Part shown: piece by piece, positions 9,266-11,535 of the stretch
Numbering within the stretch: the stretch's first letter is position 1
Layout of the letters: each line of letters opens with the position of its first letter
IMG/VR virus record: IMGVR_UViG_3300034050_000327
Location: 1 to 20,194 of that record
DNA from: a virus
Strand: one strand, 5' to 3'
DNA length: 20,194 nucleotides
Program-made: the position numbers and the translations under genes
The notes under the pieces: model-generated
What the model saw: only the letters and a program-made list of their open reading frames with translations
Told to the model about the DNA's origin: nothing
The model's database searches: none

Positions 9266-9347
9266 AAATAAAAATAATGGGCGTGGGACGGAAACCTGCC
9301 AAAATGAACACTGTACTAGTATTCTTATCCCGGCGCGGGTCCATGAC

Positions 9348-9415: not shown

Positions 9416-10207
9416 CTAATGTATTGTCATAATCAGCTCAGGCTGATGAGTGATGATCTTGGCTCTTTTAATTCTGTTCTCTTTGGCACTTAATGGCCTG
9501 AGGTTGGTATAGTGCCACGCTCTTAGCATGTGTTCATTATTGTACACGTCAAAAGCAGCTAATGGCTCAATGTGGTCAATATGCCAATAGCTTCCATAGT
9601 TCTCCCATTTCATTTTTTTGGTAAACTTTGATTCAATCCAAGATGTAAAAAATGCCCAAGTGCAGCCGATCATCTTGCTCAGTGTATCTACTTTGGTTTT
9701 TCTGTATCGCTTGAATGAATTTGCAAAATGGGTTCTTAATCTCTGCCTTTGCAAGATTATGGGACTACCCTTTTTCTCTCTTTTTATTTCATTAAAATAA
9801 TTAGAATTCTTCTTAAGCATTCGCCGTTTGTATCTGACCAGATGAGCTTCTTTATATCGCTTCCGTTCATCAGCACTCATTGAATTCCGATATCGACGGC
9901 CCAAGTAGCTTTTATAAGCACTTTGCCCCTCTTCAGATTTCCAAAACAATTCTTTAGCCTCCATCTTCAGCAGCATGGTTTTCTCATGTTCATACGATTC
10001 AAGGATTAAAGCGTTAATATCGTAGACCTTCCTTCCAAAAGCGACCTTCCAGCTCTCTTTTCGTTTCTTTAAGGTTTTTTCTTTACGCTTTTCATTCCTT
10101 TCCGGAATAGCGGCCCGAGCTTTAATCTGGTAACGCTGCTTTGTGCTCTCATTGTGAGTGTATCGATCTCTTGCGAGGCGATTGCGTCTTTCCTTTTTTG
10201 TCTCCAT
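9416..10207 (-). CDS. HNH endonuclease
   Basis: A 263-residue, strongly basic protein. The C-terminal HNH motif is clear: WHIDHIEPLAAF (about 208-219), followed by HYTNLRPLSAKENRIKR (about 231-247), in which the His-Asp-His, Asn and final His/Asn elements would hold one metal ion. The N-terminal half is Lys/Arg-rich and helical and probably binds DNA. Such phage HNH proteins act as homing-type endonucleases or aid packaging. This copy is AT-rich against its neighbours and sits alone between divergent and downstream control regions, so it looks like a mobile or late-acquired gene. A sigma-70-like promoter at 10213-10240 places the likely transcript start at or next to its ATG, giving a leaderless mRNA. 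Confidence 0.85.
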   Translation of the reverse strand: METKKERRNRLARDRYTHNESTKQRYQIKARAAIPERNEKRKEKTLKKRKESWKVAFGRKVYDINALILESYEHEKTMLLKMEAKELFWKSEEGQSAYKSYLGRRYRNSMSADERKRYKEAHLVRYKRRMLKKNSNYFNEIKREKKGSPIILQRQRLRTHFANSFKRYRKTKVDTLSKMIGCTWAFFTSWIESKFTKKMKWENYGSYWHIDHIEPLAAFDVYNNEHMLRAWHYTNLRPLSAKENRIKRAKIITHQPELIMTIH

Positions 10208-10212
10208 TCAAG

Positions 10213-10240
10213 ACTATAAAGAAAGGTTTCCGACGGTCAA
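10213..10240 (-). promoter_or_regulatory. Promoter for the HNH gene (leaderless)
   Basis: On the minus strand TTGACC (10240-10235) and TATAGT (10218-10213) are separated by 16 nt, as in the plus-strand promoters opposite. Only five bases separate the -10 box from the ATG at 10207, so transcription should start at about the A of ATG. The spacer lacks the CTATCCCC element of the plus-strand promoters. Confidence 0.65.
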
Positions 10241-10253
10241 GCCGGTCCAGCTC

Positions 10254-10281
10254 TTGACCACATCCCCCATCAGAGTACAGT
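10254..10281 (+). promoter_or_regulatory. Promoter/operator unit 1 (before XRE gene)
   Basis: TTGACC (10254-10259), a 16-nt spacer containing ATCCCCCATCAGAG, then TACAGT (10276-10281). It is closely related to units 2 and 3. Nine bases separate the -10 from the ATG at 10291, so the leader would be about 3 nt. It lies back to back with the HNH promoter. Confidence 0.65.
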
Positions 10282-10290
10282 CACGACCTC

Positions 10291-10524
10291 ATGACCAAGA
10301 CCACCACCACCGAAACGCTAGGCCAAACCCTCATCTCAATCCGTCGCAAGTATGGACTCAGCCAATCGCAGTGCGCCCGACTCATCCCTGGCTTGCCGGT
10401 AAGGATGTTGCAAAAGTACGAGCAGCACGCGAGCGAGCCGCCTGTCTGGGTGCAATCACTGCTCATTGATGCACTAATAAAAAAAGCGAAAAAGATTAAA
10501 TCATCCGTTGACACTATCCCCTGA
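10291..10524 (+). CDS. XRE/Cro-like transcriptional regulator
   Basis: A 77-residue protein with a single XRE-type HTH (about residues 10-62): GQTLISIRRKYGLSQSQCAR, then LPVRMLQKYEQHASEPP, where SQSQCARLI is the position of the first HTH helix and VRMLQKYE the recognition helix. A short Lys-rich tail follows. The size fits a Cro-like or small repressor rather than a CI with a dimerisation/cleavage domain. It sits at the divergent control region beside three similar promoter/operator units, so it is the natural candidate to bind their shared spacer element. Its last codons (VDTIP-stop) are encoded by the -35 and spacer of the next promoter. The leader is too short for a ribosome-binding site. 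Confidence 0.82.
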   Translation: MTKTTTTETLGQTLISIRRKYGLSQSQCARLIPGLPVRMLQKYEQHASEPPVWVQSLLIDALIKKAKKIKSSVDTIP

Positions 10525-10535
10525 TAGAGTATAGT
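10508..10535 (+). promoter_or_regulatory. Promoter/operator unit 2 (leaderless start)
   Basis: Consensus TTGACA (10508-10513), a 16-nt spacer with the inverted repeat CTATC-CCCT-GATAG (10514-10527), then TATAGT (10530-10535). The ATG at 10542 follows after six bases, so the expected transcript start coincides with the start codon. The unit overlaps the end of the XRE gene. Confidence 0.75.
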
Positions 10536-10541
10536 GACCAC

Positions 10542-10808
10542 ATGCAAACAACACCACTCACCATCGGCTCCACAGTCCAGCACATCAAAACTCCCTCGCA
10601 TTACGCCCCACGCATCGGCCAGGTCATCGCCATCAAAGACGGACGCGCTCAGGTCGATTGGGCTGGCTGGCCAAAAACATGGGTCAAGTTTGATTCAATC
10701 AAGGTGACCGACGACGGCTGGCGCGAGACGCCCGGCCTGAAGTCCTGCACAGCAGCACGGACCGTTACGCTGTCAGATGGCACGGTTTACCGCGAGTACC
10801 GCAAGTAA
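10542..10808 (+). CDS. Hypothetical protein, SH3/KOW-like
   Basis: An 88-residue protein of unknown function. The first ~50 residues alternate short beta strands and turns around GSTVQHIK, IGQVIAIKDGRAQVDWAGW and TWVKFDSIKV, which looks like a small SH3/KOW-type beta barrel found in many phage accessory proteins. The C-terminal part (TVTLSDGTVYREYRK) is another beta pair with a basic end. There is no signal peptide or membrane segment. The start ATG lies six bases after a strong -10 box, with no room for a Shine-Dalgarno sequence. It has its own promoter and a weak terminator after it, so it behaves as an independent cassette. Confidence 0.72.
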   Translation: MQTTPLTIGSTVQHIKTPSHYAPRIGQVIAIKDGRAQVDWAGWPKTWVKFDSIKVTDDGWRETPGLKSCTAARTVTLSDGTVYREYRK

Positions 10809-10838
10809 GCGGACCCATCAAAGCCCTCCCGCTTTTTT
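10807..10838 (+). terminator. Possible rho-independent terminator
   Basis: AAGCGG (10807-10812) pairs with CCGCTT (10829-10834) over a 16-nt loop, ending in a T-run (10833-10838) and a T-rich stretch. It overlaps the stop codon of the SH3-like gene and precedes promoter unit 3. The stem is short and the loop long, so efficiency may be modest. Confidence 0.42.
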
Positions 10839-10869
10839 GATTTATTTGATAAAATAATGCAATTATCCG

Positions 10870-10897
10870 TTGACGCTATCCCCTGACAGAGTATAGT
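10870..10897 (+). promoter_or_regulatory. Promoter/operator unit 3
   Basis: TTGACG (10870-10875), a 16-nt spacer starting CTATCCCCTGACAGAG, then TATAGT (10892-10897). From the -35 through the -10 it differs from unit 2 at only two positions. Unlike unit 2, it is followed by an A/C-rich leader of about 40 nt before the ATG at 10944. Confidence 0.72.
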
Positions 10898-10943
10898 GAC
10901 AACACAGCCCGCCAATCACGGCAGGCGCAACCAACCAACCAAT

Positions 10944-11144
10944 ATGAATAACGAAATTACATCCGGCAACTACAAGGCAACAGTAAAGCAAATTCAAGAC
11001 GGATACGGCGATACAGCCTTCCGCGTCATGGTGCTTTGCATGACGGGAACGCACGAAGCAGGCGACGTGCTCTTTATGAAAAACTACAACACGGAACGCG
11101 CCGCAATGACCGCAGCACGACGCGAACTGAAAAAGGCAGCATAA
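10944..11144 (+). CDS. Small hypothetical protein
   Basis: A 66-residue soluble protein, unassigned. It begins MNNEITSGNYKATVKQIQDG and looks like a small beta-sheet protein (GNYKATVKQIQ; TAFRVMVLCM) followed by a C-terminal helix (TERAAMTAARRELKKAA). The frame is open to a GTG at 10896, but that codon lies inside the -10 box, so the ATG is chosen. The leader (CAACCAACCAACCAAT before ATG) has no Shine-Dalgarno and resembles that of the next gene (CCAATATGAA in both). Confidence 0.62.
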   Translation: MNNEITSGNYKATVKQIQDGYGDTAFRVMVLCMTGTHEAGDVLFMKNYNTERAAMTAARRELKKAA

Positions 11145-11205
11145 ACGCTTTTCGCTTTTTACCCCTTATGTGCCCCTCATGTGCACCACCCACCACCACC
11201 CCAAT

Positions 11206-11469
11206 ATGAAAAACGCACTTCTCATCACGCTCCTCGTCACCCAAGCCTCATCCTTCACATGGATCGTGTCCCTAGAAGCCCGCCTGACCGACCGTCAGCC
11301 CACCGTGTTTCTCCACCCGTACGACACGCCAGCCAGCGACATCCCGATCTTCATCGCCCCACCTCCCGACCGCCCGTCGCGCCCAATCCAGCGCCAAGAC
11401 ACCGAGGATAGTCAGTTGCTTCCCCGGATCGCTCTTGACACCGAGCCAGATGGCGCTCTTTTCCCGTAG
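11206..11469 (+). CDS. Small membrane-anchored, proline-rich protein
   Basis: An 87-residue protein from the ATG at 11206; an upstream in-frame ATG at 11170 would add a His-rich extension and is less likely. Residues about 3-23 (NALLITLLVTQASSFTWIVSL) form a hydrophobic segment suited to a membrane anchor or uncleaved signal. The rest is polar and Pro-rich (PPPDRPSRPIQ) and would face outside the cytoplasm or stay inside, depending on topology. No lipobox is seen. Size and layout are compatible with a lysis accessory (spanin-like) or superinfection-exclusion protein, but that is only a guess. It ends about 30 nt before a strong terminator. Confidence 0.5.
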   Translation: MKNALLITLLVTQASSFTWIVSLEARLTDRQPTVFLHPYDTPASDIPIFIAPPPDRPSRPIQRQDTEDSQLLPRIALDTEPDGALFP

Positions 11470-11500
11470 TCTGGAAAATGGACGTTTAGGAAAAGGGGAG

Positions 11501-11535
11501 CCCCTCCAGTCTTTTCAGGCTGGAGGGGTTTTTTT
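11501..11535 (+). terminator. Strong rho-independent terminator
   Basis: CCCCTCCAG (11501-11509) and CTGGAGGGG (11520-11528) form a perfect 9-bp GC-rich stem with a 10-nt loop, followed by seven T (11529-11535). It ends the plus-strand cluster. The stop codon of the convergent minus-strand gene lies in the loop, and one stem arm encodes its last residues. Confidence 0.92.

Follow-up and report, generated by a model that had tools for sequence, protein, structure and literature searches.

Why should a phage contig that is otherwise read from one strand carry three near-identical promoter units on the other, each ahead of a small gene, and does the regulator encoded behind the first unit govern them all? 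The window analysed here, a 20.2-kb phage contig, has all its recognisable genes on the minus strand, with portal, terminase and methyltransferase on the left side and a primase/helicase-like protein (minus strand) on the right. The sole exception is a plus-strand cassette at ~10254–11535, made up of four small genes (77, 88, 66 and 87 aa) and a strong intrinsic terminator. Three 28-bp plus-strand units, each a promoter with a predicted operator, lie at 10254–10281 (unit 1, TTGACCACATCCCCCATCAGAGTACAGT), 10508–10535 (unit 2, TTGACACTATCCCCTGATAGAGTATAGT) and 10870–10897 (unit 3, TTGACGCTATCCCCTGACAGAGTATAGT), exactly where an earlier note on this DNA had placed them, and two positions distinguish unit 2 from unit 3, as that note had also claimed. 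Each unit directly precedes a small plus-strand ORF (77, 88 and 66 aa, respectively), in agreement with the proposal that the units drive consecutive small genes. Neither the window nor 100 dinucleotide shuffles contained a further unit at three or fewer mismatches. The worry that the pattern might be a common chance promoter was dismissed, as a slightly relaxed version gave only chance-level matches (4 in 257 Gb of bacterial and archaeal genomes; ~3.7 expected by our own estimate from the information content of the pattern).

The first cassette gene encodes an XRE-type helix-turn-helix (HTH) regulator (77 aa, 10291–10524), and its 3′ end overlaps unit 2, the promoter-operator of an 88-aa cargo gene (10542–10808). 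Unit 3 is followed by a constant 46-nt leader (10898–10943) and a second cargo gene of 66 aa (10944–11144); neither cargo product belongs to a known family. The last gene (gene 4, 87 aa, 11206–11469) has a hydrophobic N-terminus and no unit of its own. The terminator closing the cassette (11501–11535, plus strand like all these features; CCCCTCCAG-N10-CTGGAGGGG-TTTTTTT) keeps its pairing in relatives though the stem sequences differ. The ATG of the XRE gene stands 9 nt after its −10 box, a spacing kept in 12 of the 14 contigs compared below, and that of the 88-aa gene only 6 nt after, so the latter mRNA is probably leaderless; judging from these spacings, both messages should be leaderless or nearly so. 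Among the minus-strand genes of the window, a Shine-Dalgarno-like sequence was seen at 3 of the 20 starts checked, and its absence from most of them suggests a host group not dependent on Shine-Dalgarno. A divergent minus-strand promoter-like site (TTGACC-16-TATAGT, 10240–10213) lies 14 bp from unit 1 and has no operator. It would drive the minus-strand gene at 9416–10207, which matched nothing in Pfam or PHROGs.

Searching viral contigs by pattern and by protein identified 13 relatives, which makes 14 contigs with the window. The cassette was present in all 14, with one to three units in each and none elsewhere, and its order was that of an XRE-like gene, variable small genes, the conserved 87-aa gene and an intrinsic terminator. 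A loose pattern written for all unit classes had 25 matches, spread over 13 of the 14 contigs and all inside the cassette; its reversed-pattern control had none. In the remaining contig, G012, the units (L047) deviate from this pattern. Of the earlier note's expectations for the rest of the phage and its relatives, recurrence in related phages was borne out within their cassettes; copies before other genes were not found. The 87-aa gene occurred in 12 contigs at 83–97% identity and matched no family. The closest terminase found by protein search was that of Verrucomicrobia phage P8625 (24%), and annotated phage genomes contained no relatives of either the XRE protein or the cassette region. 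At one locus (L040), a relative of the 66-aa gene (80%) sits behind an unrelated promoter-like stretch without a unit. Another (L060), taken up as a leader-pattern locus, proved to be a false match.

We aligned 31 units (27 distinct) from the 14 phages, anchored at the end of the −10 box. The best symmetry axis lay 12 nt from that end, with 6-N5-6 arms that were 64% complementary among the 27 distinct units. This displaces the inverted repeat CTATC-CCCT-GATAG, which the earlier note had seen in the spacer; it is perfect only in unit 2, its axis was 41% complementary with 6-bp arms over the same 27 units, and the best axis is ~4 bp downstream of it. At 3 mismatches, CTATCCCCTGATAG was found in the window only at units 2 and 3, and equally many matches occurred in 20 of 100 shuffles. 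The conserved element is a 17-bp imperfect inverted repeat with a half-site of ~RTACYC (ATCCCC in the window's class), its right half extending over bases 1–3 of the −10 box and ending there. The overlap of operator and promoter stands, with the predicted operator taking up the spacer and running into the −10 box; it was the axis that had been wrongly placed. In unit 1, the −35 box TTGACC (10254–10259) and the −10 box TACAGT (10276–10281) flank or overlap the operator ATCCCC-CATCA-GAGTAC (10262–10278). The corresponding parts of unit 2 are a −35 box at 10508–10513, the −10 box TATAGT at 10530–10535 and the operator ATCCCC-TGATA-GAGTAT at 10516–10532, with its axis at 10524, and those of unit 3 are a −35 box at 10870–10875, TATAGT at 10892–10897 and ATCCCC-TGACA-GAGTAT at 10878–10894. 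Half-site symmetry is imperfect in the window's class (class A; left arm ATCCCC, right arm GAGTAY; 3–4 of 6 positions matching), and two units of other classes are perfect repeats (GTACGC-CAATG-GCGTAC and ATACCC-ATTTA-GGGTAT). Among leader-linked class A units, the left arm is invariant (identity 1.00) and the 5-bp middle varies (0.56), as is typical of a protein site in two parts. Every class A phage with an intact XRE gene, seven in all, had TACAGT as the −10 box of the XRE-gene promoter, whereas nearly all cargo promoters had TATAGT, so the regulator's own promoter seems consistently weaker.

The product of the first gene served is probably an XRE regulator, as had been proposed, given its structure model and its XRE-type matches. 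The 77-aa model is a four-helix HTH (helices at residues 10–21, 25–31, 37–44 and 52–74) and has the characteristic feature of the XRE/HTH_3 superfamily, a four- to five-helix XRE fold with a helix-turn-helix. By profile, matches to the MqsA/RstR HTH were sub-threshold and a Pfam match fell under the curated cut-off. Foldseek related the model to the MqsA C-terminal domain, C.BclI, C.Esp1396I, P2 C, HigA2 and Aca2, with probability 1.00 to several XRE proteins and a weak best E-value of only 0.054; weak E-values are usual for an HTH model of 77 residues. Autoregulators are present among these structural matches. The best structural and profile resemblances were to restriction-modification C proteins and the MqsA antitoxin, both of them small autoregulators of XRE fold whose own promoters carry palindromic sites. 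The cassette differs from these systems in having several separate target promoters and no recognised restriction enzyme or toxin partner; no toxin family was recognised among the neighbours of the XRE genes, which vary between phages. In one phage (G001; L052, 293–385) a natural deletion has left only the opening codons of the XRE gene, joined to the closing codons of the 88-aa gene. Loss of the regulator was confirmed by profile search, and this phage keeps one intact unit with the −10 box TATAGT, compared with TACAGT before intact class A XRE genes.

We compared the divergence of regulators and operators across the phages. Three relatives (G009, G010 and G011; loci L043, L044 and L045, respectively) encode terminases 98–99% identical to that of the window and XRE proteins only 34–40% identical, and their operators differ from the window's in step with the XRE protein. 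XRE distance was strongly correlated with the distance between downstream operators (Mantel, r = 0.86, p = 0.0001; 12 phages, many of them close kin, from metagenomic contigs). The correlation persisted in a partial Mantel test removing the distances of the terminase and the left HTH-like protein (r = 0.85, p = 0.0001); the permutations model no tree, and removing terminase distance guards against simple relatedness. For the operator of the XRE gene's own promoter (unit 1), the correlation was only moderate (r = 0.52, p = 0.0011; after removal 0.47, p about 0.001). Terminase distance was less correlated with downstream operators (r = 0.43), and the distance of conserved gene 4 gave r = 0.03 against unit 1 and r = 0.23 (p = 0.046) against the other operators. 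Operators thus follow the XRE protein much more than the terminase, conserved gene 4 or another HTH-like phage protein.

The changed operators are flanked on both sides by conserved DNA. Between class A and other phages with the same leader type, the left half-site had an identity of 0.50 (1.00 within class A), compared with 1.00 for the −35 box, 0.98 for the leader and 76% for the 20 bases upstream. Moreover, four cargo genes follow a class A unit in one phage but a unit of another class in a second, namely those of 66 aa (97% identical between phages of different XRE classes), 95 aa (98%), 47 aa (94%) and 73 aa (70%), and in each swap the operator class fits the resident XRE protein. With the same cargo and flanks but a changed operator, the operator goes with the regulator rather than with the cargo it precedes. 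As the XRE gene adjoins the next unit, part of the co-variation could stem from joint transfer. In the four phages with three units, all of class A, the distal unit, past at least one cargo gene, is also in the class of the XRE protein.

The scanned cassette genes had no match to functions in NCBIfam, Pfam or PHROGs, which cover known Acr families only partly. The 88-aa protein has relatives in three phages and an all-beta model of moderate confidence (pLDDT 77). The constant leader at 10898–10943 is also found in ten relatives, at ~46 nt with the core GCCAATCACGGC, before at least five unrelated cargo genes, and may act as an RNA element or as a point at which recombination exchanges cargo. 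It contains a candidate hairpin (GCCCGCC-AATCAC-GGCAGGC, 10907–10926); its consensus fold has only three invariant pairs and no covariation, so the hairpin is not proven, and the leader had no match in Rfam.

Two of the contigs both start and end at CGCGAGGCGGAAACC (G012, 1–17 and 37912–37927; G013, 1–17 and 38130–38145; loci L047, L048, L062 and L063). In 11 contigs the same sequence precedes unit 1 by 157–510 bp, and the window has a degenerate copy at about 9283–9298. From its position, CGCGAGGCGGAAACC seems to mark where the phage genome physically ends, as a cos site or a short terminal repeat, and the location of the cassette near this probable end points to early expression. A search limited to tyrosine integrases (Phage_integrase, PF00589) detected none in the 14 contigs, some of them incomplete, making an ordinary lysogeny repressor less likely. 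The phages are apparently virulent.

The best reading of these sequences is an Aca-like autorepressor with repeated operator-promoters. We are fairly sure that the cassette is a small autoregulated regulon, in which the XRE protein would repress its own and the cargo promoters through the repeated units, and the earlier suggestion that one small repressor could control several accessory genes draws support from the restriction of the units to the cassette, the co-variation and the cargo swaps. The XRE-type protein, probably as a dimer, would bind the 17-bp imperfect inverted repeat, which occupies the spacer and reaches into the −10 box, at sites preceding its own gene and those of the small accessory proteins, whose promoters are predicted to be strong and sigma-70-like. 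On entry of the DNA into a cell, the promoters would be unoccupied and fire at once; accumulating XRE protein would then exclude RNA polymerase, shutting off the cargo promoters together with its own. Such a repeated unit would allow cargo to be swapped while control stays, and the regulator and its operators would diverge jointly into specificity classes.

We favour repression over activation because the predicted operator lies over the spacer and the −10 box, and the boxes are near consensus. The XRE protein might still act as an activator or in both ways, as do the controller proteins of restriction-modification systems, a family that activates at low level and represses at high level, and the units would then be activator-dependent promoters. 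The structural matches to C.BclI and C.Esp1396I speak for this, as does the weaker −10 box of class A unit 1 (TACAGT) relative to those of the cargo units (TATAGT). However, activators normally bind at the −35 box or farther upstream, whereas the operator here occupies the place of RNA polymerase, the −35 box is intact, and each promoter has one site with no second upstream site seen; we consider activation unlikely.

A passive origin of the units would see them simply as a strong type of phage promoter, copied together with the small genes; their spacers would then be alike because they were recently duplicated or transferred together, and no regulator would bind them. The near identity of units 2 and 3 would fit, the XRE gene and the unit following it could move as a block, and the minus-strand site at 10240–10213 has the same boxes. 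This site, however, lacks ATCCCC and AGAG, and within leader-linked class A units the left half-site stays invariant while the middle varies. Across classes both flanks are kept but the operator changes, and the correlation with the XRE protein outlasts the removal of phage relatedness, so that we regard duplication without binding as quite improbable. Finally, the units could serve host sigma-70 with a host regulator, or represent a common host promoter type; the boxes are sigma-70-like and small phages use the host polymerase. Against this, the unit occurs at chance level in bacterial and archaeal genomes, and phages with nearly identical terminases, presumably infecting related hosts, have different operators, which leaves a host origin very hard to credit.

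An autorepressor with repeated operator-promoters resembles several known systems. By analogy, the closest parallel in layout appears to be Aca8 and the promoter sequence common to anti-defence genes of archaeal viruses. In archaeal rudiviruses, small genes near the genome ends, Aca8 included, share one regulatory sequence that surrounds a strong promoter and also precedes a small HTH gene; autorepression was proposed, and the sequences differ between viruses (PMC11065993). Mostly single small genes without an assigned function near genome ends, a shared promoter sequence and a small HTH gene are common to both, whereas archaeal TATA/BRE promoters and a winged HTH in the rudiviruses contrast with the sigma-70-like boxes, XRE fold and 17-bp predicted operator found here. 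None of the cargo genes here is known to act against host defence. The bacterial anti-CRISPR-associated (Aca) proteins Aca1–Aca10 are small phage HTH autorepressors whose inverted repeat always lies inside the core promoter of the controlled genes (PMC9410906; Aca2 structure, PMC8434428). The cassette likewise encodes a small HTH protein, by its 77-aa model, on a mobile element and has an inverted-repeat site inside the core promoter (14 contigs), and Aca2 and Aca3 were weak sequence or structure matches to the XRE protein. In contrast, aca ends the acr-aca operon, while here the regulator comes first and is followed by further transcription units with their own operator-promoters. The XRE protein had no significant sequence membership in any Aca family, and because no known anti-CRISPR (acr) gene was recognised in the cassette, Aca membership is not claimed. 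In cluster A mycobacteriophages, the immunity repressor and its stoperator motif diverge jointly, with up to 30 sites genome-wide (PMC6550527). Co-divergence of regulator and site into specificity classes among related phages is the common trait; lysogen immunity and many sites there contrast with one to three sites in a single cassette here. Of the features of a temperate immunity repressor, we found the co-varying specificity classes, and no tyrosine integrase as a sign of lysogeny functions (PF00589, 14 contigs).

For the biology of these phages, we tentatively suggest that the regulator and its operators may form a specificity module exchanged like an immunity allele, controlling a plug-in row of small accessory genes that come in behind constant operator-promoters near the packaging end. 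The cargo might comprise new anti-defence or host-takeover proteins, and the diversity of regulators might be kept because a phage gains by escaping the regulator of a co-infecting relative. The cassette offers a bacterial-phage counterpart to the archaeal rule by which a shared promoter leads to anti-defence genes. The constant unit and leader mark a hotspot of small genes of no known family, at least seven of them different, which are candidates for tests of anti-defence or host takeover, and a predicted operator with specificity classes makes clean swap experiments possible. Close relatives with swapped regulator-operator pairs offer a way to ask why specificities diversify without evident lysogeny.
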